Below are positions 15,155-58,880 of a stretch of 64,000 nt of DNA, in pieces. A program made the position numbers and the translations under genes. Source of the stretch: Siphonodentalium dalli (taxonomy: Eukaryota > Mollusca > Scaphopoda > Gadilida > Siphonodentaliidae); the NCBI GenBank assembly GCA_032622095.1, contig CP136061.1, positions 202,298,244 to 202,362,243 of the forward strand, read 5' to 3'. Positions within the stretch are counted from its first letter, which is position 1; each line of letters begins with the position of its first letter. Under the pieces are notes generated by a model that saw only the letters and a list, made by a program, of their open reading frames with translations, did not search any database and had not been told where the DNA came from.

Positions 15155-15416
15155 TTAACCCTTCCATGACTGGAGCTTCCTGAAATTTTGCGAAAACCCT
15201 GTCGAATGCATTCTCTTATATATGCGAGTCTCCCATAGGGAGCCTCACATATATAAGAGAATACATTGGCCTAACAATATCTACCTTGACCTTGTAAGCC
15301 AGTGCATTCTTGTATATATGCGAGGCTCCCTATGGGAGACTCTCCTATATAAGAGAATGCACTGGCACACGATCTTTAATGCAGCACCATTGCACCTCCC
15401 ATCATCAAAGGGTTAA
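15155..15416. mobile_element. TTAA-type double-hairpin MITE, family A (262 bp, complete)
   Basis: Starts TTAACCCTTCCATGACTGG and ends catcaaagggttaa. It holds two hairpins in inverted order, each with a 'gcattctcttatatatgcga' arm and a ctcccatagggag tip. This is a good reference copy for the family. Confidence 0.85.
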
Positions 15417-15479
15417 TAATGAAGATATCAACAAATTCTATCTATTTTTCCATGTTCTTGTTGATAAGGATGAATCGCT

Positions 15480-15640
15480 GTAAATAGGAGGATTACATTA
15501 TGGCAGAAATGAACATTGATCATAGGAAATTCGTCCAGGCAACACACAACCTCACAGCAATGTCTGTCTATAAAGTTCCTAATATTTAATGATATTTCCA
15601 GCTCACAATGCATTTTCAGGTAAATATGTTCCATAGATTT
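15480..15640. repeat. Dispersed repeat shared with 40225-40375
   Basis: Both copies contain 'gattacattatggc', 'tataaagttcc' and 'caggt' in the same order over about 150 bp. Family unknown. Confidence 0.5.
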
Positions 15641-15649
15641 TCATTCCTG

Positions 15650-16366
15650 ATATAATTACACAGTATAATCAAATTTATTATATGCTCAATAGTGATTTAT
15701 AAAAAAAAATCACATTTAAATAAATTTTTATATCCGCCAGAAGGGGATATAGAAGTTTTCATGTTCACACTAGCTTGCATGTGTGACTGATTCATTTGTG
15801 TGTACCAATAATCTACCGGAAATATTTCAAAATCCTTGTGAATTAGTAGAGCTATTCTTTTCTGTTATAATTATAGTTGTAATAAAAATCTGTTTTATGT
15901 TGAAATTCGACACAATTATGGGAACATAAATGAAGAATACGGTAACGATATTTCTCTATTCTGTGGATGGTGAAGTGAACAATCAGCAAACAGCTGTTGG
16001 CTTCGATACATGGATTGAAGTCAATTGTGAGAACATTTATCATCATAATGGCAAATTTATTTGGAAACATGTATAATATAATTAATATCTAGTGTTTTTG
16101 CAAGCCGCTCGCAAAAATAAACATTTGTATTGCTCACTCATGACATAATTTTTGTCCACTCAAAACACTAGATATTCAATGTTTATGCCAATCACAAACA
16201 TTAATCTGCTATGATTTGGCCCAAATTGTGTGTACAGTGCATTAATCATAAAATGAAGATTGTCCCTTAATTTATGCAAACACCCTCACTGCAATAAATG
16301 GCGAATATATAGTATTTTATTGGATTCCGAAAATGATATCATGAGTGACTGAAACAAAGGCTTATT
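15650..16366. other. Intergenic AT-rich DNA, nothing recognised
   Basis: No supported exon, RNA gene or classified repeat. Confidence 0.4.
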
Positions 16367-16412
16367 TTAACCTTTCTTTACTAAATACTCATTAATGAGT
16401 AGTTCCCATAGG

Positions 16413-17434
16413 TAGTGTTGAAACGACTCTTAAGATTCTGGAGTCGAGTTATGGTACATGCAGCCGAGAATTATATAGCTATACCCATATCCTTATTTCC
16501 CTCTTCTCCTAATCGCAATTACCGGTGCTGTTCAAAGGACAATAATTCAGTGGGAAAATATCTGTTTATTCAGGAAATCACATGATAAAAATCTTCATAT
16601 TTGATTTAATTGATGAAAGAACTCATGTAATGATTATGTTCACAGATTAATAAAGCAAGTTATCAACACAACAGGTAAAAACAAAATTGTAAAATATCAG
16701 ATATTTCACATGCTACTAAACCGGAAGTATTTAACCTCTTCGCTGCTATGACGTCCGTAACTATTACGGACGTAAAAGTGCACGCCGTGTGCTATATGGT
16801 CCGTAGGTACTACGGACCTACTTCAGCAAACTAGAAGTAGGCCATTATACATAACTGGAACTCAGAGATTGGTGCATCGGAATAACTGTATCTCCAAGTT
16901 TCTAACAGTGTATGATGTTCCACGATTGTGAACGATTATAACCTTTCAATCGAGTCAGTTTTATAGTTCTTGTGGTATTCCCGTTATAGTTTCCCATTGG
17001 AAAATGGCAACAACGTCAACAGCCCAGCACACGACGTCATAACGTCATTAGCAGCGAAGAGGTTAATTAATCATGTGATTTTGATAAACCAGTGTTCTTC
17101 AACCACTCGTATTAATAAAAAATGTTCCATGTAACTGTGAGTCCCGAATGTCAATTTTACCGTCATGGAGCATGGAACACCTGGTGACCCAGTTATCTCA
17201 CGATTAGTCCATGGCTTATATGCTACATTTTGAGCATACTGACTACATTTTTAACACTGATCATCCACAGAAATGTTTGATCAATGTGCCATGTACCTAC
17301 GTTATAGTCTTTTAATTCTTATTGTGGGAAGTATATACAATATTCCGACTAGTCGACGGCAAAATACATAGTCAACATTGGGGATCAAGCTATCAATGTC
17401 GACCTTGATTAGTCGACTAATTATTTCAACACTA
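16413..17434. mobile_element. hAT-like non-autonomous element (1022 bp) inside a family C MITE
   Basis: The terminal inverted repeats are TAGTGTTGAAA. The flanks CCCATAGG (16405-16412) and CCCACAGA (17435-17442) look like a diverged 8-bp duplication. It carries a further TTAA element inside and no transposase. Confidence 0.65.
16731..17066. mobile_element. TTAA-type MITE, family E, nested
   Basis: Starts TTAACCTCTTCGCTGCTATG and ends gcagcgaagaggttaa. Contains short palindromes around 'cgtaactattacg' and 'ggtccgtaggtactacgg'. A degraded relative is at about 41490-41565. Confidence 0.8.
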
Positions 17435-17542
17435 CCCACAGAATAGGAAATATTCAGATAATAAATTGTTTGATGAACTATTATCTGAACATTTCCCTCC
17501 AATAAATGTCACTCCTTTTGCACTTTTATTATTGTCTTGCAC

Positions 17543-17960
17543 AGAAATTCACTAGTTACAACAAAAAATATTTATCCCACCAGGTTGTTATTAATAACAA
17601 GACAGGGTTGCCTTATATAACTACCTTTTATTAATCAATAAAGCAACAGGTAGTCGAAAACATGTTTATGGACCTTCAGCATTGTTGTTATTGGCGAAGC
17701 CCCTTATTTGGTCCCACCAAAACGCTAACCATGAGATCCTGGTGTATCCCATAGACCTGAAAAAGACTGAAGCATAAATAATGGGTGGGAGGGTGGGTGT
17801 GCAAGAAATATCGACCGATTGCGACAGTCACTTCCCAAGAAAAGAGAATTGTATACCCAAAGTACCCTGTGACCTGGCGCTAGACAAAATAGTTCCTCTC
17901 TCAATATCGACATGCATAAATCATCGCTTTAGGACAAATCAAAGGCATTATCTCAGTTAC
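17543..17960. other. Intergenic DNA, nothing recognised
   Basis: No supported exon or classified repeat. Confidence 0.35.
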
Positions 17961-18173
17961 ATTAATGCCCAAAGTATATGACCCTTTAACCACAGCAGAA
18001 TTATGGGAAATTTTTCAGGATTTTGTCGGAAATATGGCTCGTTGCCATTCACTGGAAAGCTCTCACCGAGAGCTTTCCGATGAATGGTAGCAAGCAATAT
18101 TTTTGACTAAATCCAGAAAAATTTCCCCATAATTCTGCTGTGGTTTAGGGGTCGATTATTTAGGACATTACTG
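17961..18173. mobile_element. TA-type palindromic MITE, family H (left end degraded)
   Basis: A long near-perfect palindrome centred near 18070 (gaaagctctcac/cgagagctttc) with 'cacagcagaattatgg' arms. The right end ggacattactg is followed by TA. Class inferred as Tc1/mariner-like from the better copies. Confidence 0.65.
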
Positions 18174-18506
18174 TAGCTGACAATTGCGATTGAAGCCGGG
18201 AAATGGATTGGTATTTACCAAGTGAAGTGTCTCCATATAGCCCGGTGACCATGTTTGTATTTTAAAGTTATTGTTCATTGCTGAAAACATAAACATTGGC
18301 TGCTGTTACAGTAGATTGTTTTCCAACATTGTTTTTAACATACATAATATTGTCACTGGGGGATTATTGATGAAAGTGAGAACAAATTTATTCTATTTTT
18401 TTTTCATGTTCTCCTTGGTAAGAAGTGCCTAACAAACTATGTATGATTTTTCAGTTGTACCCTTCACGAACGACTTCCATAACTTTAAGTATTAAATGTT
18501 CCTTCA
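18174..18506. repeat. Dispersed repeat shared with 57850-57993 and 58247-58310
   Basis: Common blocks include 'acagtagattgttt', 'ggattattgat' and 'tttttcagttgtaccct'. At 57994 the related copy is interrupted by a family G MITE. Confidence 0.4.
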
Positions 18507-18921
18507 ACCCTTTGACTTCTGAGTACATCCTACCATTCTGTCCTAAAAGAGCTATATAAGTTCAACAAATTGTTTAATAAACCAATTAGCTGTTCATCCC
18601 TACAAATGAATGAATGAGACCATATTAACTCTTTCAATACGGGAGCTCAGCTGGTGCAGCATTAAATATAATTTGCCTATGCGTTCACTTATATATGCGA
18701 GTCTCAAAAAGGGAGCCCTGCATATATAAGAGAATATACAAGGTCAAGGTAAATATTGTTAGGCCAATGTATTCTCTTATATACATGTATGCAAGGCTCC
18801 ATATGGGAGACTCGCACATATAAGAGAATGCACTGGCACAGGGTTTTCGCAAAATTTTAGAAATCTCCAGTCATGGAAGAGTTAACTACTCATTGGCTAG
18901 AATTCAGTTATCAAAGGGTTA
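18507..18921. mobile_element. TTAA-like element with a family A MITE nested inside
   Basis: The outer ends are caaccctttgacttctg and ttatcaaagggttaa. The nested family A copy (18625-18885) begins TTAACTCTTTCAATACGGG and ends catggaagagttaa, with both hairpins present. Confidence 0.65.
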
Positions 18922-18949
18922 ACTCGTGGCATATGAAGCCCATGCATAG

Positions 18950-19210
18950 TCAAAAATTCACCCTCTGGGGATCTTATTCTGCATGGCCTTATTTGCCATG
19001 GGAGACATACACTCAGATTGAAGTTCACAAATGGTGAATATTGTGATGTACACCCATTGGGAACCTTGGTTAAGCAATGTGTGGTCTGCCAATTTGGTAA
19101 TATGGAGAAACTAAACTAAAAAAGAAATAGAATCTGTGTGAAGAAGTTTCTATATAAATTTTATAATAAAGAAAGTGTCCAGAAAAAATGGGGCCTAAGC
19201 AGAATGAGAA
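18950..19210. mobile_element. Degraded fragment of the long family G MITE
   Basis: Contains 'aaattcaccctctggggat', 'gggagacatacactcagatt' and 'ctaagcagaatgag' in the family order, with the terminal parts lost. Confidence 0.5.
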
Positions 19211-19406
19211 TTAAACTCAGACTTGTGTCCATTGAATTCAGTTATATATTTCTAACTCTATGAGATTCTTACTAGTACCCTTGTCCGATTCAGATATGAT
19301 AGGAATTATAAAAGGCACAGCTAGGCATGACCACAAAAAAACATTAATGATAAAAAATGGTTCGCGGGTTATATATTTCCATATTCTATACAGCGCTGGC
19401 AACCAA

Positions 19407-19619
19407 CAGTAATGCTCTAAATAATCGACTCCTTAATCACAGCAGAATTATTGGTAACTTTTCAGGATTTAGTCCGAAATATGGCTTGTTGCCATTTATA
19501 GGAAAGCTCTCAGTGAGAGCTTTCAGATGAATGGCAACAAGCCATATTTCCGACTAAATCCTGAAAAGTTACCCATAATTCTGCTGTGGTTAAGGATTCG
19601 ATTATTTAGAGCATTACTG
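19407..19619. mobile_element. TA-type palindromic MITE, family H
   Basis: Starts CAGTAATGCTCTAAATAATC and ends with its complement ...gagcattactg. The whole copy is a palindrome with the 'gaaagctctcagtgagagctttc' type centre. Confidence 0.75.
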
Positions 19620-19624
19620 TATTA

Positions 19625-20835
19625 GTAATCTCCAGTAGATTCTGAAAATTATATCAAAGAGAGATAACTCTATATTTCAAATTGGAACATTGTAAAAGCT
19701 TAAAATATTTATATGTGACAAAGGTGTTCCGAAGTTGGTGTACATGTATTGCTATTTAACTCGGTAACTTATTGTCAATTAACTTCTCAGACAAGAACCA
19801 TGGATTGTAACAATGCTAAACGTCCCTTTCTGAACTTTTATTTAACTTTTTTTTAATTTAATATTAAAGTTTTATATAGGCCTAAATAATAGATTGAGAA
19901 TATACTGTATTTATTTGATAGTTATCTTGTTGTCAGTTGTTTGGTATCATGGTATCATTCTATGGCATACTCATTGATATAGTATTCATTCCTTAACCCT
20001 TTACCCAACAGAACGACCCTGTGCCAATGCATTCTCTTATATATGCGAGTCGACCATATGTCGCCTCGCATAAATAAGAGAATGCATTGGCTTAACACAT
20101 ATTATAAATGATAAAATTGTCAAAGAATGTAGAAAAATATTATAAAATTGTTAAAGAATGTAAGAAAAAATGTTAAAAAGTGTTTAAAAAAAGAGTTTTT
20201 TTAGGCCAATGCATTCTCTTATATATGCGAGGCGACCTATGGTCAACTCGCATATATAAGAGAATGCATTGGCACAGGGCATAACTGTAACCATCACAAT
20301 GTGGTCAATGAACCGGTTCCAATGATATCCATATTTGTATGGTGTTATTGAGACAGACCGAAGATATTTTAAATTGTTGAAGCTTTATTTGGGCGTTTTT
20401 GGCCGGTTTGTTGGGTAAAGGGTTAACAAAAGATATATTTTATAAATAACTGCTATTAAAATGTATTCTCCAGTAGAGTCTGAATATTATACCAAAGAGA
20501 GCTAACTCTATACCTCAAATTGGAACATTGTATAAGGTTAAAATATTTATATATGGCAAAGTGGTTCCGAAGTTGGTTTATTGCTATCTGACTCTACTCA
20601 GTAAACTTATCATTAAATAACTTCTCGGACAACCTCCATGGATTGTTACAATAATCTAACTGCGTCACTTACTAAACATTTATTTAAGATTTTTATTTAA
20701 TTTCAGAGTTTTAATATCCCTGAGAATACACCGTATTTACTTGATAGTTATCTTGTTGTCAGTTGTTTTGTATCATGATGTCATTTTATGGTGTATACTC
20801 ATTGATAATACACATTCCTTAATGTGTGATATGTT
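19625..20835. repeat. Local tandem duplication (about 370 bp), units 19625-19996 and 20460-20835
   Basis: Both units share 'tctccagtag', 'caaattggaacattgta', 'ttccgaagttggt' and 'gatagttatcttgttgtcag'. A family B MITE sits in the TTAA near the end of unit 1 ('attccttaa'). Unit 2 shows the uninterrupted TTAA at 20819-20822. Confidence 0.75.
19993..20426. mobile_element. TTAA-type double-hairpin MITE, family B (434 bp)
   Basis: Starts TTAACCCTTTACCCAACAGA and ends gttgggtaaagggttaa. It carries two 'gcattctcttatatatgcga' hairpins with a cgacc tip; in this copy the first tip has decayed. Sister copies are at 56359 and 58536. Confidence 0.85.
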
Positions 20836-21662
20836 TTAACCCTTTGAGTGCCAGGGGCCGATCTCATCGGCCCTAAACCTACAAAATAAGTCTGTTAAAG
20901 GGGTACTGTACGCCAAATGTTGTTGTTGGTTTTTATAGTCTCCGAGTCGGAGAATAAGGTAACAATTTTTTCATTATTTGAAAGTCGGTTGAGTACGAAG
21001 TAGTGTTACGGATGACAAATTTACCGGAATGCAAAAATACAAATTGTCGTTGTCGAGTAATTTGTGTACAGTTTTCAACCTAATGAAACAAATAAAAGTT
21101 ATATTATATGCATAGTAGTCCCATATAATCATTTAAGTTATTGTATCGTCGCTAGTCAGTGAGTGGCTTGAGTGTTCTCCCCGTATCATCATAATATTTT
21201 AAGCGATCGTGTGTGCGATCGGTTTAACAAGCCAGTATCCCTCATTTATTTTATTTTATTACGTAAATTCGTAATTTAATTGACGCCATTTTATGGCTCC
21301 AGTCATAAATTCAATTTATATCAAATTATTAACTTTTAAATTATAAAATTTTAAGATAGCCTATTAACCTGAGCGTTTACAGAATACATCTTCGACTCAA
21401 ATTACTTATGTTTCTCTATATTATCGATATTAGATCGTTGTTGTCACCGGAAATGTAATGAAAATGGCGTACAGTACCCCTTTAAAGAATATAAGAATAA
21501 ATTATTAAAATTGTAAAAAACCAAAAAAAAACAAAATTGTTAGGCCAATGCATTCTCTTATATATGCGAGGCGACCTATGGTCGACTCGCATATATAAGA
21601 GAATGCATTGGCACAGGGTATATGGGTTGGTACAAAAATCGACCTGGCACTCAAAGGGTTAA
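20836..21662. mobile_element. TTAA-type MITE, family D, carrying a nested TTAA element
   Basis: Starts TTAACCCTTTGAGTGCCAGG and ends ctggcactcaaagggttaa. It contains one cgacc-type hairpin at 21543-21611. Its left part is interrupted by the element at 20895-21485. Confidence 0.82.
20895..21485. mobile_element. Nested TTAA-flanked element (591 bp), TTAAAGGGGTACTG type
   Basis: Ends are TTAAAGGGGTACTGTACGCC and the exact complement. A TTAA lies at each end. No transposase inside. Confidence 0.82.
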
Positions 21663-21806
21663 TAAATGACTGTCATGAAATTGATTATCAGTTTTATCTC
21701 CAATAAAAAAGTTTTCATTATACAACCACAATTTATTATGATTGATTATTGAAATTTAGTTTGTTTAATGATTTTACAAATATATCAGTATATGTTGAAC
21801 AAGCCT

Positions 21807-22160
21807 GCAAATATTGTGTCTGTCATTTTGCAGAATTAGGCCTCATCTTCTGGGAAGTATCTATAGTCTCATATTAACATTTTATTTAGTTACTTTTTCC
21901 CTTCTGGAAAGTTTCTATATCCCCTAATTTTCAGAAGATAAAATGCATATGTGAGGTGACTAATGGGTGAACATCGCCAACTTCAAATCAGGAACTTCAA
22001 TCTGATCATAAGTCTCCAATAACAGTTGAGGCCTAAGCAGAATGAGGTTCCCAGAGGGTGAATTTTGGCGATTCTAGCCTGCCGTGCAGAATAGCATCAC
22101 TATATTCACCCTCTGAGGACCTCATTCTGCAAATGACAGACACACAATTTCAAGGCTTTA
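21807..22160. mobile_element. Long-type family G MITE
   Basis: Contains the 'gtgtctgtcatt' end, the AT-rich middle with 'ggaaagtttctatatccc', and a 'gcagaatgaggttccc' hairpin before the 'gacagacacac..caaggct' end. Confidence 0.6.
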
Positions 22161-22499
22161 TGTTTTTATAGCTGTGATAATAAAATTGTTCCCTTTGCCA
22201 ACAAAAAAAGAAACTTTTTTTTTATCGCATGAATTCTTAGAAATGATTTGGTCGTTGATCTTTATGGTGTCTTAATTACACTCCGGACATGTTACACATG
22301 CACTGGACATTTTTGTAGTGCCCCCAGTTAACTTTCCCAATGTAGGTGGGAGTCTCCCATCTCCAGTTCAGCTAGGGAAACAGTTTCTCCCAATTTCAGT
22401 GGACCATAGTGCCTGCATCCAGCTGTACCAAATAGAAGCCACATCAAAGCGACACCGATAATGCTCTCGATATGAAAATAGACTGCTGAGACGGCATCC

Positions 22500-23822: not shown

Positions 23823-23829
23823 GTGATGT

Positions 23830-32100: not shown

Positions 32101-35100
32101 TAGTATAAAATTGTCCAAAACGTGTAATATATCAATATCTTGTTCAATGCAAATTGGTATTGAGAGTATGTCGGTCGGCTCGTCGAATATTTGCTAGGCC
32201 GCCAGGTGAAAAATAACACATATAAAAAATCTCTATCTGTATCTGATTGACTTGAATCAAATATTTGTTACCCCTAAAGTCAAAGAAATAGTAATTTAAG
32301 AGCGTTAATTCGGATTACGTATATTTAATTTCAGTGTCAATAACATCAAGCCAGACATTCCAGGGTATGATTATAACGGGGTTGTATACACTGCCAAATA
32401 ACCATGCTGTGGGTACAGGAAGTGCAGGACAGAATCCGATTGGTCAAAGCTTCATGTGTTCGACTGTGCTACACCACTACCGTCCAACACCAACACAAAC
32501 TATACGATTCCTGTGGCAGGCCCCGCAGTCTGGAACTGGATGTGTCAGCTTTCTGTAAGTCTTGATCAGTTAACTCTTCCCTGACTGGAGCTTTCTGAAA
32601 TTTTTCGTAAACCCTGTGCCAATGCACAGGATCTTTAATGCTGCACCAGCGCAGCTCCTGTCATGAAAGGGTTAAATAGCATTTAGATGACTCTGTAGTG
32701 TTTGACCGTTGCGTTGGTCATGTCGTACATGCTTTATTGCCACATAAGGTATGTGTTTGGGTTTGTATTGTGTTAAATATAGAATCTCTCCATTGGGTGC
32801 TTTAACACAATGTATCTGATGCATCCCAGCCATCTAAATGGCTTAGTGGAACATCGGTATCCATGGCAGCTTTCAAGTTGGCTCGTAAATTATTTTGGCC
32901 AATTTTTTGGGCCATTTTTCAGAAACTTTGGCCAAATTGAAAAACAAATCTATAGGGGGTTTGGTTTAAACAATATTTATTCCTTCCCAAAACATTTGAC
33001 ATATTAATATATATTTTAAAAAACATGAAGAAAACATGAAAGTTAATGATTTTTATTGAGAATATAAAAAAAATAATAACAAAATCAAAGCAAGATAGTT
33101 TTGAAGGTTTTTAAGTCAGAAAATGTATATATTTTTTTTAGAGATTTGAGCAGTGGGTGGTTAGCATCACCCACAACACAATGCCCCTGGTAACTCTTCT
33201 GGTCAAATTCTTCAAAACAGTGCAAATTCAAGTCAGACTTGAGCTAAATTTGTGTTTTTATTTTTTCAAAATTTTGTTGAGTCAATAACAGTGTGCATAC
33301 AAAATCTCTTGTCTGAGGAGCTATTTGCTTGAATACATATATGATGTTTTAGGGCCACAGCATTTCAAGGATTTCAAGTTTTATTCAAAGATACTACAGT
33401 GTTCCAGGTCTGTGAGGCTGGAGGTAAGATTATGTAGCATGGTTCACAGGACTCAAATGGCCATAGTGTGTTCTCTTCCTACATATTTATTTAATGGTAA
33501 CCCATTGTTCCATACTGTTCTAAAAATAAACTTTTGAATGAACAATTCATCATTTTCAGGCATGACAGAACTTAACTCTTTAATGAAGGGAGCTGCTTTG
33601 GTGCAGCATTAAAGATCCTGCACCAGTGCATTCTCTTATATAAGTGAGTCTCCCATAGGGAGCCTCACATATATAAGAGAATGTACTGGTTTGCCAGGTC
33701 AATTTAGGTAGATATTGTTATGCCAATGCATTCTCTTATATATGCGAGGCTCCCTATGGGAGACTGTCATATATAAGAGAATGCATTGGCACAGGGTTTT
33801 CGTAAAATTTTAGGAAGCACCAATCATGGAAGTGTTGATTCCTTTCTTTCTTTCTTTCTTTTAAAAAAAAAACACCATAAATATGCATTGATTTGGTTTT
33901 TGAACCATAGAGCTGTAAAGTACTGTCAATTGATTAACAAAGAAGTGACAAAATGCCATAATATATTTGTGTTATATACACAATGTATTTGTATCGATTC
34001 ATGTATCGCGACAAGGCTACTTTTCGTGGCTATATAGCGACGAGGCGACCTTGGTCGCCTCGCCGCTATATGGCCATGAAAAGTAGCCTCGTCGCGATAC
34101 ATGAATCGTTACAAACACATTGTGTATATAACACATTTATCTACCATTGGTGTGACAGAATCCACCGCACAAATTACAATTTAGGAGTTTCTTAAATGCC
34201 AAAACTGTTGAATTTGTGTCCGACGATAAGCTTTCTTGAGTAAATTATCCCAACCTGCAAAGGTATCTGTGTTACGCGATTAGCTCGCTTTGCTAAATTC
34301 TCACAACCTGCAAGTTCACGCGAATATGCCTAACAGAAACTGTATTCAATGGACAAAATCTCTTACACTTATAATAAATACTGAACAAATAAATATTAGT
34401 TACTTTGTTATATGATATACCATAATACCCATGATGGTAGCCTAGTATGCAATCAAATAATGTTAAAACCTTCGAACTATTTGTTTATAGTACGCAAGTA
34501 TATACGTTGGAATGTTGTTTTGATTTTTCACGCGATTGATGTGACGTCAGTTCATTCATGATTTTTGAACCAGTCAACGATGTCATGACCGCCTTGTTTC
34601 GCAACTGCAGTAACGATACGGATGCTTTTATCGCCAATTCGTTATCGCCAATTGTATCAGGGAATTTCGTAGGAAATGGTAGATAAAATATCTAATCATC
34701 ATCGATAAGTATCGGCTACTTCTGGTAAAATGCTATCCAATATATAGGTGAGCGGGCAGCCACTCAACTATTCCTAGAAAGTTTCATATAAATTCCGAGG
34801 AATAAAATAAATATGAATCAAGGACACCTGTTCAGAAATCTCCAGCCAATTAATGTTGATTTCATTTAGTATTTTTCTCATATAATCTCAGGACAGTTTA
34901 AGAAAATGAAAATATAAAGAAAACAAGTTCTTTCAATGCTAAATATTCGTCAATCTATTTCTTTCATTTTGAATTTATGACTGTAAATTGGCTAATCGCA
35001 TTGATTAATAGAATATGAAAGACCATTATTAGGAGGGTATTAGAAAGTTTAATGAAAGTTGAAGCCAACTCCCATATATATAATCGTTATTGTTATAGTT

Positions 35101-53100: not shown

Positions 53101-56100
53101 CATTTTTGTCGACACAGAAGAGGCGGAATTGACCTGCTTCGCAAACTTGTCCTGAATTAAACCAAGATGGGCACATTCTGTAACTTCCTGAATAGTTTGA
53201 ATGCCCAACCTCCATATCCTTCCCGAGCGGTCATATGAGTTTTTATTCTCGTTGAATACAACAATTAATTTACTTCTGACTGAAAATATGGAGTATTGCC
53301 ATACATATTAGGCATATTTAAATGAGTGTTGTAATACATATCACACTTATTTAAACTAGTATTGGCATACATATTACACTTATCTAAATGAGTATTGTCA
53401 TACATATTATGCTTATTTAAACAAGCATTGTCATACACATTACACTTATTTAAACGAGTATTGTTATACATATTACACTTATCTAAGTGAGTATTGTCAT
53501 ACATATTATGCTTATTTAAACAAGCATTGTCATACACGTTACACTTATTTAAACGAGTATTGGCATACATATTACACTTATCTAAATGAGTATTGTCATA
53601 AACATTATGCAGATTTAAATGAGTATTTTCATACATATTTAAATGAGGATTGGCATACATATTACACATATTTAAAAGGTTATGTTAAAAATATTTAGGG
53701 AGCTATATGACAACACAGATATTTGTTTTTTAGACATACATGTTCTTTTGCGTAATTTGGGTCTTAATATCAACTATAAACAAATCAATTTTAATTGTAG
53801 TAGTTTTTGTTTATTGCCAACATATTCTTGTTTCTGAGAACATGGATACAATTTGAATGTCTTTAATTTCGATAGATACCTGCAGTTCCACATTAGAGTT
53901 GGAAGCGATTCACAGTCATCTAACTGTCCTGCTCCCGACGGTGAATCAGAAACCATTTTACTGGAGGCTTCATGTAACGGAGGAGTGACCTGGAATGTTC
54001 TCAAGACATTCCCAGTCAATGATTACAAGAGTGCAAGGTATATTTATACTTGTACTTATATGGGTCTAATATTTATTAAATTATAGCAATAACATAATTT
54101 TGGGGGCATTACAGTTTATTAGCGGCCCATCAGAAATTACTAATAGCCCAACATTCTATGAGAGCCCAGAGACGAAGAGCCGCTAACTAAACAGTAATAC
54201 CCTCCAAAATTATGTTATTGCTATTATTACCACTCGTTTATACCATAAACTATATATTGACATGTCTGCAAGGCATGTCATTTGTTCCTTAAAAATTAGT
54301 CAAATATTCCATCAAAACTATTTTATCAATTATTGTTTACAAATTAAAATTTGATGTATGATCATTGGTCACATGGCCAGGAGAATGTCTTGGGATAGGC
54401 AACTTTGACCTCAGATGACTACTTAAAGGAGGACTAATAAATTGCCTGATCAATAAAGAGCGTTTATCATCAGCTCAGAAGATATGTGGGACAATTAGTG
54501 CACAGAGGTAACAGTTACCTCTGTGCACTAATTGTCCCACATATCTTCTGATTGTAACATGACATGGGAATTGTCATGGGATAGGTGCCGTTGACCTCAA
54601 ATGACTTAAAGAGGCACTAATAATTAGCAATAAAGAGCATTTATTATCAGCTTAAAAGATAAATGGCAACTTTATCTCAAGAGTATCATGCAGTAGGCGC
54701 TGTTTACCTCAGGTGACTAATAATTATTTTAAATGACTTGAAGGGGCAACAATAATTTACTAATTCTTCACACGATTTTCATGCATGTCATGTTTATCAC
54801 CCACCATTTTTGATGGGCAATCCCCCAGTAAGTATATATTTTTTGTTCTAGAAATAGTTTATCTAAATCCAGGGTTCATGCTGCAGCTTGCCAAATTATC
54901 CAAATTCAAAAATAATTCACATTTGGCAAAAATTATTTTCATTTGGCAAATGTTTTGGAAAGCGAGTTCTCATTCCCACATTAAAGTAGAAACAATTTAT
55001 ACAGACTGTGGTTACATTGGCTAAATTGTATGTCATGAACAAAATTTTCTAGTAATGGCTTATGGAGGTAATGGGAAGTTAACACCTCTATCAACATGTA
55101 GTTAATCCGCTTGCATATCAGAGAGATTGGCAATTGATTGTGATTGTGATGTTAACATGACAATCATTCCCCTTTATTTAGGGGTATTCATAAGTTGATG
55201 CATACCTTATATTGGTAGGTGATCGGTTTATCATTTCTAGATAATCCACTGGAGGGACAATAATTATTACTGATTGAATTATTGTCTTTTTTCATGGAAT
55301 GTCTAAAACATTGGAAGTTTTACAAGTGGCTATTGTCAATTGTAAGAATCAATGTTCCATAAACCCCTATCGACCCAATATCATTTGGTAACTTCAAATT
55401 TTGAGAGAATTTGGCAAAAAATATTTTCATTTGGCAAAAGTAAATGTTGGGCCAGTTGCTTAAAACTCTAAATTATATTAGTAAATCAAAGTAATGTCCT
55501 CTTGGACCTCCTTCCACTGATATATCACGTCCTAACAATACTAAATTCATCCCAAAGTGATCGTCACAATGGACCAAGTTTAAATATTTCAGAATGGATT
55601 CTGTGTTGCTGCCATCGAGTGTCCGCAGAGATGGGTGTCGGTTTAGATGGTGGCAGCCCAGTCACTCAGGTCGCAACAAGGACGTGTGGGCGATTGATGA
55701 TATAAGCTTACACAAACAGCTTTATAACACTCTGGATGTCCAGATGGCTGATGTGGCCAACATAAGTGATTCTCTGACCATCGACGGTGGCAAACTACTC
55801 GACTCATACTGTGGTAAAATGAGAACTCTCAGGTAATATTCTAATATCTGGTTGTACCCGGTTTGCCATTTCCATTGAGACCATGTAGGAAATGTCATGA
55901 ATACCGCATCATCCTTGATTTCTGTGTCTATTATGGGCCCGCATCACCAAATTCACCCTCTAAGAACCTCATTCTACTTGGGCCTCAAATGCTATGGGAA
56001 ACCTAGGATCAGATTGAATTTCCCCAGTTGAAGTTTGTGATGTTCTGAAAATTAGGGGATATAGAAACTGAACAGAAGGGAAAAAGTAACTAAAAACAAT

Positions 56101-57740
56101 GTTAATTTGAGACTATAGATACTTCACAGAAGGCCTAAGCAGAATGAGGTCCTGGCCAGAGGGTGAATTTGGTGATGCTAGCCCACTGTACGGGATAACA
56201 TCGCTAAATTCACCCTCTGGGGACCTCATTCTACAAATGACAGACACGCTATTTGCAGGCTTGGTAGGATGGGACTAGACTCTGTATCTATTAGCCTATA
56301 TTTATCTATTCTGCAATAAAATCATAAAAGAGTACATAGGCAGAACACAATGTGCATCTTAACCCTTTACCCAACAGAAGGGCCCTGTGCCAATGCATTC
56401 TCTTATATATGCGAGTCGACCATAGGTCGCCTCGCATATATAAGAGAATGCATTGGCTTAACACATTAAAAATTATAAAATTGTTAAAGAATGTAAGAAA
56501 AAATGGTAAAAAGTGTTAAAAAAAAGATTTTTTTAGGCCAATGCATTCTCTTATATATGCGAGGCGACCTATGGTCGACTCGCATATATAACAGAATGCA
56601 TTGGCACAGGGCATAACTGTAACTATCACAATGTGGTCAAGGAGCCGGTTCCAATGATATCCATATTTGTATGGTTTTATTGAGACAGACCGAAGATATT
56701 TTAGGCTGTTGAAGCTTTATTTGGCCGGTTTTCGCCGGTTTGTTGGGTAAAGGGTTAATCAGAATCTTTTATCAAATGAGTTGCGGATGGTGCAAGGATG
56801 TATTTCAAGGCTTGCCATGGATTTTAAAGACATTATTTGAAAAAAAGATTTATTTCATCCATTATAATTTCAGCTTTGGTGGCAATGAAGTTCAAGGTGA
56901 CATGAGATTTATAATGACGGAAGCTCTGCAGATTAGTCCCGGGTACATGATGCAATTTGACTTGGTTATGGGCTGCCAGAAACCTTATGCCATGAACATG
57001 GATAACAAGGTCTACCTCGAGTACTCGACTAACCACGGGATGAGCTGGGATTTGGTGCAGGATCCATGCTACCCTCCAGATCCGTGCAGCACTCATCAAC
57101 CAGGAACCGCATTTGATGCTACAGAGTACAATAATTGGAAGAGGGTTACGGTGTTACTGCCAGAACATACCTGGTAAGCAGGGACATGGTAACAGGGGGT
57201 GTTTGGTCAGAATATAATAGTTGGAAATTTCATCCCTGATATAGACAGAACACAACGAACATCTTAATCGAGAATCTTTTATCGAATGAGTTGCGGATAT
57301 GTGCGCAGATATATTTTGTGAGAGCATAGCTCGAGCGAAATGTAACTATGCACCATCCACAATGTATTTATTCTATACAATTGTGTCAGACAAGTTCAAT
57401 TTATGACTGTCACCTTCATTAATACAAAAGATAATTTATTGTGATTTAAGTCGGATCGAATGCACCCTCAGACTATTGAACCCTCAGACTACTGAAACCT
57501 CAGACTATCGAATCCCTCGACTAACCGATTGTATCCCATTTATCTTTTTCTGACAGTCTTGGTATTGAACTTTCATAGCAATACTCTTGATTCATTATAT
57601 AGGTCACCAAGTACAAGGTTCCGATTTCGACAATCAGAATGGGGTGATGCGGATACATGGTCTGTGTCTCGGCTGTATGTTGGGCAACAGTGTCCCGACA
57701 TGTGTAGTGGACATGGACAGTGCAATGAAGGAATATGCAA
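28994..57740 (+). CDS. RELN: Reelin gene, 5' half (20 coding exons, continues beyond the window)
   Basis: Reelin is a large secreted matrix glycoprotein that in vertebrates signals through VLDLR/ApoER2 lipoprotein receptors to guide neuron position. Splicing the 20 exons listed below gives one frame of 3134 nt (about 1044 residues): signal peptide, Reeler domain (about residues 20-163), an N-terminal subrepeat-like region, reelin repeat 1 with EGF1, subrepeat 2A and the start of EGF2. All introns are GT-AG. The visible length matches the position of EGF2 in the vertebrate protein, so no exon appears to be missing. Exons for about 2400 more residues must lie past 64000. Its role outside vertebrates is less well known; function here is inferred from homology. 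Confidence 0.96.
29271..29674. mobile_element. Family H MITE with an internal insertion, in reelin intron 1
   Basis: Starts CAGTAATGCTCTAAATAATC and ends gggcattactg/TA. Between about 29292 and 29503 the palindrome is interrupted by foreign sequence that contains a 'ctggcactaaacctacaaaa' phrase related to the family D MITE. Confidence 0.7.
29961..30195. mobile_element. TTAA-type MITE, family C, inverted
   Basis: Left end tgaaccctttctttactgaa (TTAA decayed to TGAA), right end tataaaaagggttaa. It has a (G)n run near 30116. A family H copy follows directly. Confidence 0.65.
30207..30390. mobile_element. TA-type palindromic MITE, family H, loop-deleted
   Basis: CAGTAATGCCTTAATAATCG start, gggcattactg end, TA on both sides; the central hairpin tip is deleted. 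Confidence 0.8.
30440..30660. mobile_element. Family A MITE without clear outer ends
   Basis: Contains 'tgactggagcttcctgaa', both hairpins and 'ggatctttaatgctg'. The terminal AAAGGGTTAA is lost, and a family G element starts at 30683. Confidence 0.65.
30683..30937. mobile_element. Double-hairpin MITE, family G (255 bp)
   Basis: Ends CAAGCCTTGAAATAGGGTGC and ...ctatttcaaggcttg, with two mirrored hairpins. No direct repeat in the flanks (aacggtgg / gtccaatt). Confidence 0.78.
31636..31868. mobile_element. TTAA-type MITE, family C
   Basis: Starts TTAACCCCTTCTATACTAAT; keeps the 'gttgaacttattatctgaac' block. The right end is decayed (tttagcaccatag). Confidence 0.65.
32005..32319 (-). repeat. 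Right arm of the inverted repeat pair flanking reelin exon 1
   Basis: Reverse complement of 27301-27660 with scattered changes. It ends 15 bp before exon 2, so part of the exon 2 upstream region derives from this repeat. Confidence 0.75.
32335..32554 (+). CDS. RELN: Reelin coding exon 2: Reeler domain
   Basis: Acceptor ...ttaatttcag, donor ttct/gtaagt, 220 nt. Encodes the Reeler core: 'GMIITGLYTLP', 'GQSFMCSTVLHH' and 'IRFLWQAPQSGTGCVSF'. The two cysteines align with the domain's disulphide cysteines. Leaves in phase 2. Confidence 0.96.
32570..32675. mobile_element. Family A MITE remnant without hairpins (106 bp)
   Basis: TTAACTCTTCCCTGACTGG start and catgaaagggttaa end are kept, but both hairpins are precisely missing. 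It starts 15 bp after the exon 2 donor. Confidence 0.75.
33353..33423 (+). CDS. RELN: Reelin coding exon 3: end of Reeler domain
   Basis: Acceptor ...gatgttttag, donor ggag/gtaaga, only 71 nt. Encodes 'LATAFQGFQVLFKD...VFQVCEAG', the last strands of the Reeler domain with its final cysteine. It enters in phase 2 and leaves in phase 1, the only way exons 2 and 4 can be joined in frame. Confidence 0.94.
33572..33837. mobile_element. TTAA-type double-hairpin MITE, family A
   Basis: TTAACTCTTTAATGAAGGGA start; both ctccc-type hairpins are complete; the right TTAA is decayed to TTGA. A (CTTT)n run follows. Confidence 0.75.
33969..34134. mobile_element. 166-bp foldback element
   Basis: A near-perfect palindrome: gtgttatatacacaatgt at the left, its complement at the right, centre 'gcgaccttggtcgc'. 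No other copy was seen in the window. It is probably a MITE of unknown class. Confidence 0.65.
34135..35121. other. Reelin intron 3 remainder; includes a repeat fragment
   Basis: A piece at about 34780-34880 resembles the TTAAAGATGG-type element at 38386 ('aaataaatatgaatcaagga'). The rest is unclassified. Confidence 0.4.
35122..35227 (+). CDS. RELN: Reelin coding exon 4: linker after Reeler domain
   Basis: Acceptor ...tgcaatttta/g, donor tgtg/gtaggt, 106 nt. Encodes 'GAPTSSPL...IHSDGVILRDNFD', which corresponds to the conserved 'HSDSIILRDDFD' stretch of vertebrate reelin. Leaves in phase 2. Confidence 0.95.
35820..35969. mobile_element. TTAA-type MITE, family A, single hairpin (150 bp)
   Basis: TTAACCCTTCCATGACTGC start and cacaaaagggttaa end with one hairpin; one of the two hairpins has been lost. 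Confidence 0.75.
36243..36673. mobile_element. Long-type family G MITE
   Basis: Ends ggcctcaaaatatggtgctg and complement (ccatattttgaggcc), two hairpins and the AT-rich middle with 'gggaggcctagacacagatt'. Confidence 0.7.
36691..36843. repeat. 10-bp tandem repeat (gtaacaatta, 15 copies)
   Basis: Fifteen perfect or near-perfect direct copies of gtaacaatta without spacers. A simple satellite, not a CRISPR array. Confidence 0.97.
37628..37724 (+). CDS. RELN: Reelin coding exon 5
   Basis: Acceptor ...tttttag, donor ttt/gtgaga, 97 nt, ends in phase 0. Encodes '...NNNCGAVLHGDSAVFCEKDGPRDF', matching the conserved '[21 protein letters not shown]' part of the reelin N-terminal region. The bases after 37724 stay open but do not match the family, so the donor is placed here. 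Confidence 0.93.
37821..38147. mobile_element. TTAA-type MITE, family F (327 bp)
   Basis: TTAACCATTTGGCAGGTAGT start, acctgtcaaagggttaa end. A degraded relative is at about 44987-45516 (ctctggcaggtagaac ... cactcgccaaagtg). Confidence 0.72.
38386..38725. mobile_element. TTAA-flanked element, TTAAAGATGGTCTATC type (340 bp)
   Basis: Left TTAAAGATGGTCTATCTCTT, right complement ...agacatagatcatctttaa. It ends 20 bp before reelin exon 6. A right-truncated copy starts at 45627. Confidence 0.72.
38746..38797 (+). CDS. RELN: Reelin coding exon 6
   Basis: Acceptor ...atttattacag, donor ttat/gtgagt, 52 nt. Encodes 'VTVPLNTTAAAVLQFAL', the strand after the GPREL motif. Small but required to keep frame between exons 5 (phase 0) and 7 (phase 1). 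Confidence 0.93.
38798..40050. other. Reelin intron 6: AT-rich, (G)n run and a degraded family C MITE
   Basis: A run of 23 G is at 39517-39539. A degraded family C copy (about 39715-39990) has the 'gttgaacttattat' block. No coding sequence. Confidence 0.5.
40051..40150 (+). CDS. RELN: Reelin coding exon 7
   Basis: Acceptor ...tgtctccag, donor attaa/gtaagt, 100 nt. Encodes 'SAGSCGHQG...NVLFGTEHCTHWHLTEKI', matching 'GSCRFSYSDPSIIVLYAKN..WIQLEKI' of vertebrate reelin in position and pattern. Leaves in phase 2. Confidence 0.94.
40225..40375. repeat. Dispersed repeat shared with 15480-15640
   Basis: Same order of blocks (gattacattatggcgg, cactataaagttccc, atttcaggt). Confidence 0.5.
40657..40921 (+). 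CDS. RELN: Reelin coding exon 8
   Basis: Acceptor ...ctattgcag, donor gtcaaa/gtacat, 265 nt, ends in phase 0. Encodes 'HMVHLPREARGTAVCIRWTQ', 'CWAIDNVLITNTA' and 'SFDPVDTSNWLFFPGAGVK', nearly identical in pattern to the vertebrate 'CWALDNILIINSA' and 'LDPVDTGNWLFFPGATVK'. One of the best-conserved exons. Confidence 0.97.
40985..41570. repeat. Degraded TTAA-type MITE sequence in reelin intron 8
   Basis: The start resembles family D ends (ttaactcattcaatgccaag) and the right side resembles family E in reverse (ttttacgtccgtaatagtta, atagcagcaaagaa). Confidence 0.5.
41768..42018. mobile_element. TTAA-type MITE, family C (251 bp)
   Basis: TTAACCTTTTCTATACTTAA start and ggtatagaaagggttaa end. Lies 79 bp before reelin exon 9. 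Confidence 0.8.
42098..42255 (+). CDS. RELN: Reelin coding exon 9
   Basis: Acceptor ...ctttatttcag, donor gctgg/gttagc, 158 nt. Encodes 'HNCQSDMNALQF', 'FVVSRDINLADTDI' and 'LDEDFDSQ', matching 'HSCQSDGNSIYFHG' and 'ATTRDVDLSTEDI'. The last residues start reelin repeat 1, subrepeat A. Leaves in phase 2. Confidence 0.95.
42370..42690. mobile_element. Degraded long-type family G MITE
   Basis: aatatggtgctggacatttg at left, atgtccagcaccatattt at right, two damaged hairpins. Confidence 0.65.
42817..42968 (+). CDS. RELN: Reelin coding exon 10: reelin repeat 1A
   Basis: Acceptor ...ttctctag, donor tttgg/gtatgt, 152 nt. Encodes 'GGRVAGLCGAI...AMIFDGAGKRHICTPLVDA', equal in layout to '[29 protein letters not shown]'. 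Leaves in phase 1. Confidence 0.96.
43012..44128. mobile_element. About 1.1-kb repeat with TAGCTCAACTT ends (copy 2)
   Basis: tagctcaactttactttgta at left, ccaagttgagcta then cagtgtcattga at right. Holds a (GT)n run near 43074 and several tandem 'gccagcagccatcttggatt' units. Starts 43 bp after the exon 10 donor. Confidence 0.65.
44196..44513. mobile_element. TTAA-type MITE, family A, with an internal duplication
   Basis: TTAACGCTTCCATGACTGG start, catgaaagggttaa end. The second hairpin's left arm and the 'gcgcgtaagccagtg' linker are repeated (about 44335-44410). Confidence 0.75.
44715..44976. mobile_element. TTAA-type double-hairpin MITE, family A
   Basis: TTAACCCTTTCATGAGGGGA start, catggaagggttag end; both hairpins present, the second one partly decayed. 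Confidence 0.78.
44987..45516. repeat. Degraded family F-like element
   Basis: 'accctctggcaggtagaaca' at left and 'gacgtactcactcgccaaag' at right resemble the ends of the 37821 element. The TTAA is lost on the right. Confidence 0.5.
45627..45870. mobile_element. Right-truncated TTAAAGATGGTCTATC-type element
   Basis: Left end TTAAAGATGGTCTATCTCTT, and internal blocks 'aaatatgaatcaaagac' and 'ctgtctggaa' shared with 38386-38725. Confidence 0.6.
45898..46013 (+). CDS. RELN: Reelin coding exon 11: reelin repeat 1A
   Basis: Acceptor ...tttttaacag, donor cacaag/gtatat, 116 nt, ends in phase 0. Encodes 'GSGICNAPKSSKAGIMVYIED', matching '[21 protein letters not shown]'. Confidence 0.95.
46129..46308. 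mobile_element. Truncated family A MITE
   Basis: TTAACCCTTTTATAATGGGA start; first hairpin present, second cut off at 'gctccctatgtgc'. Confidence 0.68.
46670..47345. repeat. Tandemly structured dispersed repeat with 'acttggcac..cacctgcgat' units
   Basis: Three or four roughly 180-bp units share 'gaacctgtgcacctgcgatt' and 'ggagttatcccc'; the left edge has a G-run and (gtctgtcc)n. Related to 6040-6430 and, at its left, to 50690-50760. Probably a LINE 3' region; class unproven. Confidence 0.5.
47786..48009 (+). CDS. RELN: Reelin coding exon 12: reelin repeat 1A
   Basis: Acceptor ...ttttacgttag, donor aacag/gtaaaa, 224 nt. Encodes 'VPRMFSLPIDN', 'SDVWALDSVKMLPTLP' and 'KIIQFGMNLKCGA', matching 'RNVWAVDFFHVLPVLP' and 'HMIQFSINLGCGT'. 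Leaves in phase 2. The donor's first eight bases are also the target duplication of the MITE that follows. Confidence 0.96.
48010..48279. mobile_element. 254-bp family G MITE inserted at the exon 12 splice donor
   Basis: The element 48018-48271 (CAAGCCTTGAAATAGTGCGT ... ctatttcaaggcttg) is flanked by an exact 8-bp duplication GTAAAAGT at 48010-48017 and 48272-48279. The left duplication copy is the splice donor of exon 12. Confidence 0.93.
48286..48554. mobile_element. TTAA-type double-hairpin MITE, family A
   Basis: TTAACCCTTTGAACCTTTCA start, catggaagggtcaa end (TTAA decayed). Starts 6 bp after the family G target duplication. Confidence 0.72.
48555..48780. repeat. Degraded family C MITE
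   Basis: 'ctttatactaaattctcatt', 'aagttcaacttattatctga' and 'gaataatagaccattccaat' in the family order; ends lost. Confidence 0.55.
49125..49320. repeat. tRNA-derived SINE-like repeat
   Basis: It has an A-box-like 'gctcaatggttagcg' and a tail 'cttcagcaaggttgcttgta' followed by 'ctgtgctcgctttt'. The tail is shared with 59450-59690. Likely one SINE family with a variable head. Confidence 0.5.
49439..49567 (+). CDS. RELN: Reelin coding exon 13: reelin repeat 1A Asp-box strand
   Basis: Acceptor ...taatttcag, donor ccaag/gtatat, 129 nt. Encodes 'DYSTDHGKSWYPLHSPCLPG', an Asp-box (BNR-type S-x-D-x-G-x-x-W) turn found in every reelin subrepeat. Leaves in phase 2. Confidence 0.96.
49597..49775. mobile_element. 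Family C MITE, right end lost
   Basis: TTAACACTTTCTATACTAAA start, with 'ggaaatgttcagataataag' and 'gtttgttgaacttcttatct'. Lies 29 bp after the exon 13 donor. Confidence 0.65.
50422..50528 (+). CDS. RELN: Reelin coding exon 14: end of subrepeat 1A
   Basis: Acceptor ...tattttttgcag, donor acaatg/gtaaaa, 107 nt. Encodes 'WKVITLPLPYSALVPHARFRWKQ' (pattern) and 'SWALDN', matching 'WNRITIPLP...TRIRWRQ' and 'MWAIDN'. Leaves in phase 1. Confidence 0.96.
50923..50986 (+). CDS. RELN: Reelin coding exon 15: first half of EGF1
   Basis: Acceptor ...ctttcactttcag, donor tgtca/gtgagt, 64 nt. Encodes 'VYIGNCPDGCMGHGECRQGAC', the strand 'VYIGPSC' plus the first four cysteines of the EGF-like module. Leaves in phase 2. 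Confidence 0.95.
51370..51603 (+). CDS. RELN: Reelin coding exon 16: EGF1 end and start of subrepeat 1B
   Basis: Acceptor ...ttcttttcag, donor gctag/gtttgg, 234 nt. Completes EGF1 (CDFGYRGDSCEE) and runs into 1B: 'FLMESFGNAESISSFS', 'IQGAELGYVCGVLSTDKAMV' and 'FNKDGPRVLIT', nearly the vertebrate pattern. Leaves in phase 2. Confidence 0.96.
51630..53283 (-). mobile_element. 5'-truncated LINE, C-terminal part of a reverse-transcriptase polyprotein
   Basis: The open frame runs from about 53283 down to 52099; the part from 53208 is 369 residues. It corresponds to the region after the catalytic RT core, opening with an 'SKLIVVFNENKNS'-like thumb segment, and it contains a Cys/His cluster (HLC...CSS spacing C-x12-H-x3-C) seen at the C-terminus of many non-LTR retrotransposons. 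The catalytic core is missing; truncation occurs beside the minisatellite at 53284. The 3' UTR probably reaches about 51630. It lies antisense in reelin intron 16. Confidence 0.75.
53284..53690. repeat. 33-bp minisatellite
   Basis: About 12 copies of a 33-bp unit (catacatattacacttatct + aaatgagtattgt). The unit length is a multiple of three, so the - strand shows an 11-residue-repeat open frame (MYDNTHLDKCN-like). I regard it as non-coding. Confidence 0.9.
53876..54037 (+). CDS. RELN: Reelin coding exon 17: subrepeat 1B
   Basis: Acceptor ...tttcgatag, donor gcaag/gtatat, 162 nt. Encodes 'YLQFHIRVGSDS', 'CPAPDGESETILLEASCNGG' and 'VTWNVLKTFPVNDYKSA', matching 'FLQFTLRLGSKS...[21 protein letters not shown]'. 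Leaves in phase 2. Confidence 0.96.
54083..54224. mobile_element. 142-bp foldback element
   Basis: Inverted ends atagcaataacataattttg and complement, then 'cattacagttt..tagcgg' against 'ccgcta..aaacagtaata'. Starts 45 bp after the exon 17 donor. Class unknown. Confidence 0.6.
54476..54550. repeat. Perfect 75-nt hairpin
   Basis: Two 37-nt arms (cagaagatatgtgggacaat...) that are exact complements with a one-base centre. Neighbouring blocks 'ttgggatagg..ttgacctcag' recur at 54570-54720, so it is part of a larger, decayed repeat. Confidence 0.7.
55593..55832 (+). CDS. RELN: Reelin coding exon 18: end of 1B, start of subrepeat 2A
   Basis: Acceptor ...aaatatttcag, donor ctcag/gtaata, 240 nt. Encodes 'GCRFRWWQPSHSGRNKDVWA' and 'IDDISL', the reelin signature 'FRWWQP...DVWAID'. 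Then 2A begins with 'ISDSLTIDGGKLLDSYCGK'. Leaves in phase 2. Confidence 0.97.
55930..56270. mobile_element. Degraded long-type family G MITE
   Basis: Contains 'aaattcaccctctaagaac', the middle block 'gggaaacctaggatcagatt', a second hairpin and the end 'gacagacacgctatttgcag'. Confidence 0.6.
56359..56758. mobile_element. TTAA-type double-hairpin MITE, family B (400 bp)
   Basis: TTAACCCTTTACCCAACAGA start and gttgggtaaagggttaa end. Both hairpins are complete with the cgaccataggtcg tip. Confidence 0.88.
56874..57173 (+). CDS. RELN: Reelin coding exon 19: subrepeat 2A
   Basis: Acceptor ...tataatttcag, donor acctg/gtaagc, 300 nt, the longest reelin exon here. Encodes 'ISPGYMMQFDLVMGCQKPYA', '[20 protein letters not shown]' (Asp-box turn) and 'WKRVTVLLPEHTW', very close to '[20 protein letters not shown]' and 'WRRVIVLLPQKTW'. 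Confidence 0.97.
57603..57740 (+). CDS. RELN: Reelin coding exon 20: end of 2A and first half of EGF2
   Basis: Acceptor ...ttcattatatag, donor tgcaa/gtatgt, 138 nt. Encodes 'STRFRFRQSEWGDADTWSVS', 'LYVGQQCPDMCSGHGQCNEG' and 'IC', equal to '[22 protein letters not shown]'. Leaves in phase 2; the next exon, expected to begin with the fifth EGF cysteine, is not in the window. Confidence 0.96.
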
Positions 57741-57993
57741 GTATGTTCTTTGTATATAAATGTTGGTAGGATGTAATAAATGGAGACATATCTTGTGTGA
57801 TTCTTGTATCTGATCATAATAAACGTTTTCTATCTATTAGAGTTATTATTCGTTGTGAAAAATATAAATATTGGCTGCGGTTATAGTAAATTGTTTACAA
57901 TTATTGGTTTCAAAATGTAGAATACTATGGAAGATTATTGATAATGAAAATAAGAAATACAAAATTCTGTTTTTTCCTGTTATTCTTGGTAAC

Positions 57994-58246
57994 AAGCCTT
58001 GAAATAGTGTGTCTGTCATTTGCAGAATGAGGTCCCCAGAGGGTGAATTTAGTGATGCTACCCTGCAAAGCAGGCTAGCATCACCAAATTCACCCTCTGG
58101 GAACCTCATTCTGCTGAGGTGTAAGCAGAATGAGGTCCCCAGAGGGTGAATTTGGTGATGCTAGCCCACTATGCGGGGTAGCATCACTAACTTCAATCTC
58201 TGGGGACCTCAATCTGCAAATGACAGACACACTATTTCAAGGCTTG
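57994..58246. mobile_element. Family G MITE (253 bp) with a compensated hairpin tip
   Basis: CAAGCCTTGAAATAGTGTGT ... actatttcaaggcttg. The first hairpin tip reads ccctgcaaagcagg instead of ccccgcatagcggg, so the changed pair still matches. Confidence 0.8.
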
Positions 58247-58535
58247 TTTAACATAGTTTGTATGAATTTTCAGCTGTACCCTCTGATCACATTTGGGCAC
58301 TCTAAAATTATGACCATCCTTAATAATGTTTGTGACTTCAAATTCTGATTGTATGAATATATACAGCATCAGCTAACACTGTTTTGCACTGCCCATTTTT
58401 GTTTTTGGAGGGAAAAGTTGATTTGAAAATTTGACCACCCGGTTTTTATATATTAAAATCTTCCTTAGTTTTGTTGTATGTTGTTTTTATTAGATCCATG
58501 GTATCAACAAACTAATCAGTTTGTATTTTATAGCC

Positions 58536-58880
58536 TTACCCTTTACCCAACAGAACGGCCCTGTGCCAATGCATTCTCTTATATATGCGAGTCGACCATA
58601 GGTCGCCTCGCATATATAAGAGAATGCATTGGCTTAACACATTAAAAATTATAAAATTTAAAATTATAAAAGTGTTAAAAAAATTTTTTTTTTAGGCCAA
58701 TGCATTCTCTTATATATATATAAGAGAATGCATTGGCACAGGGCATAACTGTAACTATCACAATGTGGTCAAGGAGCCAGTTCCAATGATATCCATATTT
58801 GTATGGTTCTATTGAGACAGACCGAAGATATTTTAGGCTGTTGAAGCTTTATTTGGCCGGTTTGTTGGGTAAAGGGTTAA
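58536..58880. mobile_element. TTAA-type double-hairpin MITE, family B
   Basis: ttaccctttacccaacagaa start (TTAA decayed to TTAC), gttgggtaaagggttaa end. The first hairpin is complete with cgacc/ggtcg; the second has lost its tip. Confidence 0.82.

Follow-up and report, generated by a model that had tools for sequence, protein, structure and literature searches.

Covariation between source lineages, and not robustly among resident copies, of a MITE-borne hairpin module in Siphonodentalium dalli

Introduction

When both partners of a base pair differ between copies of a transposon-borne hairpin, is the fold being maintained, and on which copies does the maintaining force act? The question is raised by a 64,000-nucleotide stretch of the scaphopod mollusc Siphonodentalium dalli (assembly GCA_032622095.1, contig CP136061.1, positions 202,298,244 to 202,362,243 of the forward strand), hereafter the window, in which elements with different outer ends share one long hairpin that occurs with two different tips. 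Covariation of this kind is usually taken as proof of a functional RNA fold. An earlier note, made from the window sequence, proposed that two pairs of the tip had changed together, and that the fold rather than the sequence is maintained, either by selection on an RNA or DNA hairpin or by palindrome correction during replication. Here, these proposals are followed up with copies from across the genome.

Materials and methods

The hairpin profile was built from five window hairpins, and the genome was searched over 2.23 Gb in nine contigs. Four lineage consensuses (B, the intermediate I2, and the twin hairpins H1 and H2 of A elements) were built from copies fetched in this analysis. The outer flanks of B hairpins were typed by fuzzy match and also by eye. 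CpG columns, columns 10 and 13 and the mismatch column 33 were excluded from the restoration counts, as were the 30 hairpins, out of 387, in which fewer than 60 of the 69 columns could be mapped. Where a hairpin had itself served to retrieve its locus, the columns constrained by the search pattern were left out too. The exclusions were decided on once the first-look result for the first sample was known, before retrieval of the replicate.

Results

One hairpin module in elements with different ends

The module, about 69 bases long and with the arms GCATTCTCTTATATATGCGA in the window sequence, is found close to each end of non-autonomous DNA transposons (MITEs) that are very abundant. Where elements were inspected, their twin hairpins proved to be inverted copies of one unit, each read from the outer flank inward. 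The A-type tip is CTCCC-ATA-GGGAG, found in the window at 15230, 15326 (reverse), 33650 and 33750 (reverse), and the B/D tip is CGACC-ATA-GGTCG, found at 21572 (reverse), 56417, 56565 (reverse) and 58593. The arms and both tips thus lie where the earlier note had placed them, exactly or within 8 bases. The elements and hairpins are the following.

15155 to 15416, no strand: A-type MITE, TTAA to TTAA, with ends TTAACCCTTCCATGA / TCATCAAAGGGTTAA (boundaries by eye)
15203 to 15274, + strand: A hairpin H1, tip CTCCC-ATA-GGGAG (sequence and profile)
15295 to 15369, - strand: A hairpin H2, tip CTCCC-ATA-GGGAG, outer pair G-C replacing A-T (profile)
20020 to 20095, + strand: B/D hairpin with the decayed tip CGACC-ATA-TGTCG (sequence and profile)
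20202 to 20276, - strand: B/D partner hairpin, same element as 20020 to 20095 (sequence and profile)
21540 to 21615, - strand: B hairpin, tip CGACC-ATA-GGTCG on the - strand; element end ..CACTCAAAGGGTTAA
33620 to 33690, + strand: A-type hairpin of the H2 type (profile)
33718 to 33793, - strand: A-type hairpin of the H1 type (profile)
56386 to 56461, + strand: D hairpin 1, tip CGACC-ATA-GGTCG; element start TTAACCCTTTACCCAACAG at 56359
56534 to 56608, - strand: D hairpin 2, tip CGACC-ATA-GGTCG (sequence and profile)
58562 to 58637, + strand: D hairpin 1, tip CGACC-ATA-GGTCG (sequence and profile)
58693 to 58740, - strand: D hairpin 2, tip deleted (profile)

The two hairpins enclosed by the A-type MITE at 15155 to 15416 are mutually inverted. 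The window contains 30 profile matches; a further 15 fall in twenty stretches of 7 kb placed at round coordinates on the nine contigs. Hairpin copies in which the two outer 10-base arms are both exact number 145,067 in the genome, against 0 for the control pattern.

The carriers differ at their ends. The A element, 262 bases long, has TTAA at both ends, which read CCCTT.../...AAGGG. The D element has TTAA at its start, at 56359 (this end only), and TTAA is absent at the edges of TATGTGACCCGCC..-ended carriers where these edges were seen. Classed by outer flank, 17 of 60 B hairpins in fetched loci lie in TATGTGACCC-ended elements and 27 in D, the latter divided between the left end (15) and the right end (12). 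The remainder consists of one hairpin in TTAACCCTTTGAGTGCCAGG-ending elements, one beside an A-type end, six with other flanks and eight too near the locus edge for flank typing. As these flanks belong to elements with unlike ends, the hairpin behaves as a module.

Several further observations were made on the copies and their surroundings. The B module was also seen in elements with ends TATGTGACCCGCCATATC.. (L009:820-1310, L020, L061 and L063). Tandem arrays carrying hairpins, with periods of about 11.2 kb and about 7.9 kb, lie at G000:C1:820029-926303 and C1:94237245-94292482 and inflate the copies listed. Deletions of the tip or of a single arm occur in single copies (window 58693 to 58740; L081, L088, L092, L094, L141 and L159). 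A recurrent G>T change at tip position 31 turns CCATAGG into CCATATG with its local palindrome CATATG, both at 20020 to 20095 in the window and in genome copies. The outer arm of one twin is combined with the inner arm of the other at L052:336-410, L094:242-308 and L097:145-220; these are 3 of the 223 hairpins, among 357, that can be typed on both sides, and an inversion of the segment between the loops would give this appearance. In the window, a D element lies upstream of a reelin exon at 56899 to 57168 on the + strand (Pfam Reelin_subrepeat-B, E 2e-18; PDB reelin, E 1.4e-24). A 787-codon open reading frame at 61411 to 63771 on the - strand has a reverse transcriptase domain (PF00078, E 7.2e-36) and is taken by us for a non-LTR retroelement.

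Three of four changed pairs are matched between lineages

The four consensuses vary at 7 of 66 stem sites. Six of these sites form three complementary pairs, and 3 of the 4 changed stem pairs remain paired across the lineages. The third compensated pair, at columns 10-70, is an addition to the two tip pairs of the earlier note: it is A-T in H1 and G-C in H2 of A elements, and B hairpins have the H1-like outer pair. The unmatched fourth change is a C·A mismatch at columns 13-67 in H1 of A. The T·C mismatch that adjoins the tip on its outer side is kept in both families in the window, as had been noted, and in all four consensuses, which also preserve the ATA centre. With the C·A of H1 uncompensated and the T·C present in all four lineages, perfect pairing is not required.

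In a pooled mutual-information scan the three lineage pairs come out on top (0.81, 0.53 and 0.48; the next value is 0.06). The highest value within a family, 0.30 at 37-43 in B, is due to the double mutants L077 to L080, which were fetched deliberately; elsewhere the maximum is 0.13.

There are few lineages, each founded by few copies, and a handful of sources might simply have happened to bear two-sided changes that then hitch-hiked with them. We consider this very improbable: random placement of the seven sites yields three two-sided pairs with P 4.7e-4, or about 1.7e-5 when complementarity is included, and at the restoration rate of resident copies (21 of 896 changed pairs in 357 hairpins) the chance of at least 3 of 4 matched pairs is 5e-5, bearing in mind that the lineage claim rests on only four lineages and four changed pairs. 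Matched changes are likewise predicted if the module is a dyad-symmetric site that is bound by a homodimeric protein in duplex DNA, so that its half-sites must match while the hairpin never forms. The constancy of the T·C mismatch and of the ATA centre would suit such a site. By reasoning, however, a fixed protein would disfavour changes in a half-site rather than compensate for them, and a 33-position stem is long for one site; we regard this as decidedly unlikely.

The tip changed through an intermediate lineage

That the two tip pairs changed together proved wrong in time. A lineage with one pair changed, I2 (G-C, C-G; CGCCC/GGGCG), has 169 exact 25-base copies genome-wide, and the alternative intermediate (T-A, A-T) has 2. 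A single block event for both tip pairs is ruled out by the I2 lineage.

For 80 I2 loci, fetched from the first 100 places among the matches listed (contigs 1 to 5), the A-type H1 outer end was found beside 75 by a fuzzy match that, on controls, recognised 40 of 45 H1 of A, 15 of 113 H2 and 2 of 51 B. A partner hairpin could be mapped in 71 of these loci (69 classed as H2 and 2 as H1 of A), and its tip was readable on both sides in 59. None of the 59 carried the new tip GC/GC; 45 partners carry TC/GA, two carry GC on the left side only, and the others are decayed. One twin had therefore changed while staying paired within itself, and its partner did not follow. Homogenisation between twins was accordingly not seen in the I2 loci.

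Outer-stem divergence is 1.8% in B, 5.1% in I2 and 6.6 to 7.1% in A, with many of these copies fetched by exact core matches. This ranking fits the order A to I2 to B, which is one of parsimony and not taken from a rooted tree.

Resident copies show no robust excess of paired changes

Genome-wide, young B copies are changed at position 26 in 1250 cases, at position 32 in 864 and at both in 11. About 10 to 12 double changes (10.4 to 11.9) are expected, using 91,000 to 104,000 unchanged B copies, a figure that is estimated rather than counted. The starting point is the 140,428 copies whose arms and mismatch are intact, and 26 of about 100 among the matches listed, some of which lie in a tandem array, were not exact B. 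Of the 11 doubles, 4 are paired, against about 5 to 6 expected from a hand count of the letters listed for the changes at positions 26 and 32. For this one tip pair, doubles in excess of expectation make up at most about 0.3 to 0.4% of single-change copies (95% upper bound). The more frequent change at position 26 would favour G·T on the element strand.

Restored pairs were counted in older copies as well. The first look, taken at 133 unconditioned hairpins, found 28 against 18.4 expected (P 0.0145), an excess that stems partly from CpG columns and from misassignment between H1 and H2. In the first sample of 274 hairpins, 141 of which were used only at columns left free by the fetching pattern, 19 pairs were restored against 10.5 in shuffles (P 0.0085), and 11 of the 19 were transversion pairs (5.8 expected, P 0.03); with CpG columns included the count was 31 against 19.2 (P 0.002). 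Two-sided changes at true pairs numbered 5.7 per 1000 cells in this sample, compared with 3.5 to 5.1 when the arms were slid by one to three columns. The same test on a replicate of 40 further loci found no excess (2 restored against 5.2), the replicate being made up of 40 I2, 34 H2, 5 B and 4 H1 hairpins and so not like-for-like with the first sample. Over all 357 hairpins, 21 pairs were restored against 15.0 in shuffles (P 0.07).

We read these counts as no robust covariation in resident copies, with a small effect possible. Taken with the matched changes between lineages, they place the covariation in the source lineages. The proposal that the fold is maintained is thus supported between lineages and not supported among residents. 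The outcome that was to count against it, no genome-wide excess of paired changes, was found for residents as far as they were tested, and was not found for lineages. Palindrome correction as a general process is not supported by the B doubles or by the combined restoration count.

Selection on an RNA hairpin, such as a pre-miRNA or a source of siRNA, would make use of a long and well-paired fold, and folded as DNA the four consensus hairpins lie 12.3 to 15.6 standard deviations below shuffles. Against it, an Rfam scan of the window returned 0 matches at the gathering score. Single transitions outside CpG columns left G·T in 185 cases and A·C in 187, and hence give no sign of selection on an RNA strand; this comparison is weakened because the twins, lying in opposite orientation, may offset a strand bias, and it is weak evidence against the RNA account also in that residents need not be the copies under selection. 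For residents, RNA selection was rejected on this pooled absence of wobble asymmetry and on the combined restoration result, and for the module as a whole we hold it to be very improbable indeed.

Closure of the T·C mismatch

Copying one arm onto the other should close the T·C mismatch. Among genome copies, T>G, which closes it, was counted 315 times and T>A, which does not, 241 times; for the opposite base, C>A (closing) was counted 859 times and C>G (not closing) 288 times. The single-change spectra of the sample are 217:71 for C>A to C>G and 79:144 for T>G to T>A. At the mismatch, T>G relative to T>A is thus 2.4 times the ratio of the sample, and closure by C>A is not raised (2.98 at the mismatch against 3.06). 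Sixteen loci with a closed mismatch were fetched (L061 to L076). A second hairpin was present in 10, and closure affected one hairpin only in 9 of these twin loci and both in L062. A rare correction in one direction is possible at the mismatch; it is too infrequent to explain three matched changes out of four between lineages. As the main cause, palindrome correction was set aside as unsupported at the one B tip pair and in the 357 hairpins, and the T>G excess stays unexplained.

These figures bear on template switching, in which one arm would have been written onto the other in a source copy; mutation rather than selection would then have restored the pairs. Such a mechanism has been described for RNA-gene hairpins (PMC8794818), and in its favour are the raised T>G and the surplus of restored pairs that the first older-copy sample showed. 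Template switching should, however, also hit residents, where excess doubles in B are bounded at about 0.3 to 0.4% of single-change copies for the one tip pair and the replicate of older copies has no excess, and it should not leave C>A closure at the background ratio. It survives if it is rare or tied to transposition, and overall we think it unlikely.

The paired change of family G

Family G has a hairpin of its own with a changed pair.

58054 to 58082, + strand: family G local hairpin CCCTGC-AAA-GCAGG, changed pair T58064-A58072

The motif, at 58061 to 58074, corresponds to CCCCGC-ATA-GCGGG in sister elements. The earlier note saw in it the same behaviour as in the tips. The paired change is real as a local hairpin, but the pair is a CpG on both arms in the sisters (CCGC to CTGC, GCGG to GCAG), and independent deamination of the two CpGs very probably explains it. 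The changes are C>T and G>A, one CpG on each arm. The evidence comes from only six local hairpins, in three family G elements: both changes occur together in one hairpin, a single CpG change in two and a different change in one, and two are intact. The CpG columns of A copies diverge by 14 to 28%, against 8.8% for the whole stem, and the window has a CpG o/e of 0.58.

Discussion

The matched changes may have arisen stepwise in source lineages, with selection for an intact hairpin at mobilisation. This is the explanation that we tentatively favour, stopping a little short of calling it probable. It would begin with an A-type element whose H1, and not H2, exchanged T-A for G-C at tip pair 2 and so founded the I2 lineage. 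A later change at tip pair 3, A-T replacing C-G, would have produced the young B module, which now sits mostly in elements with other ends. Copies with a broken stem would rarely become sources, and selection for the intact hairpin would act during mobilisation and cease once a copy is resident. The order of the steps, the rarity of broken-stem copies as sources and the selection at mobilisation are the parts that we infer. As the lineage pairs are matched and residents decay without robust repair, the fold seems to be important while copies spread and no longer thereafter. An unlikely, further-reaching form of this explanation is that mobilisation needs an extruded subterminal DNA hairpin, read by its machinery for shape and not for sequence, so that the module could be adopted as a cassette by transposons with unlike ends.

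In this hairpin, covariation lies between lineages and not robustly among copies, so that forces on source elements can be told apart from those on all copies. This is a caution for covariation tests that pool transposon subfamilies. With more than 100,000 copies, single and double changes can be counted exactly, and template switching, RNA selection and selection at mobilisation can thereby be tested against each other.

PiggyBac-like MITEs have TTAA target sites, and REPINs are mobilised in bacteria by a RAYT transposase. The elements described here resemble piggyBac-like MITEs, by description, in the A element, whose 262 bases are too short for a transposase gene and are flanked by TTAA; a TTAA target-site duplication (A) and a short, non-coding, high-copy element were both found. 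They differ from them in a subterminal hairpin module that is common to elements with different ends. A description of these elements was not found among the literature matches listed, as judged by titles and abstract openings. Compensatory changes in DNA-encoded stems are shared with the maintenance of hairpins by template switching (PMC8794818), and the absence of a robust excess of restored pairs in residents sets the module apart. The nearest parallel is found in the bacterial REPINs, which likewise consist of two inverted palindromic units with a spacer and for which compensatory changes are reported (PMC3116915); unlike them, the present module belongs to an animal genome, and its covariation lies within each hairpin and not between the twins.
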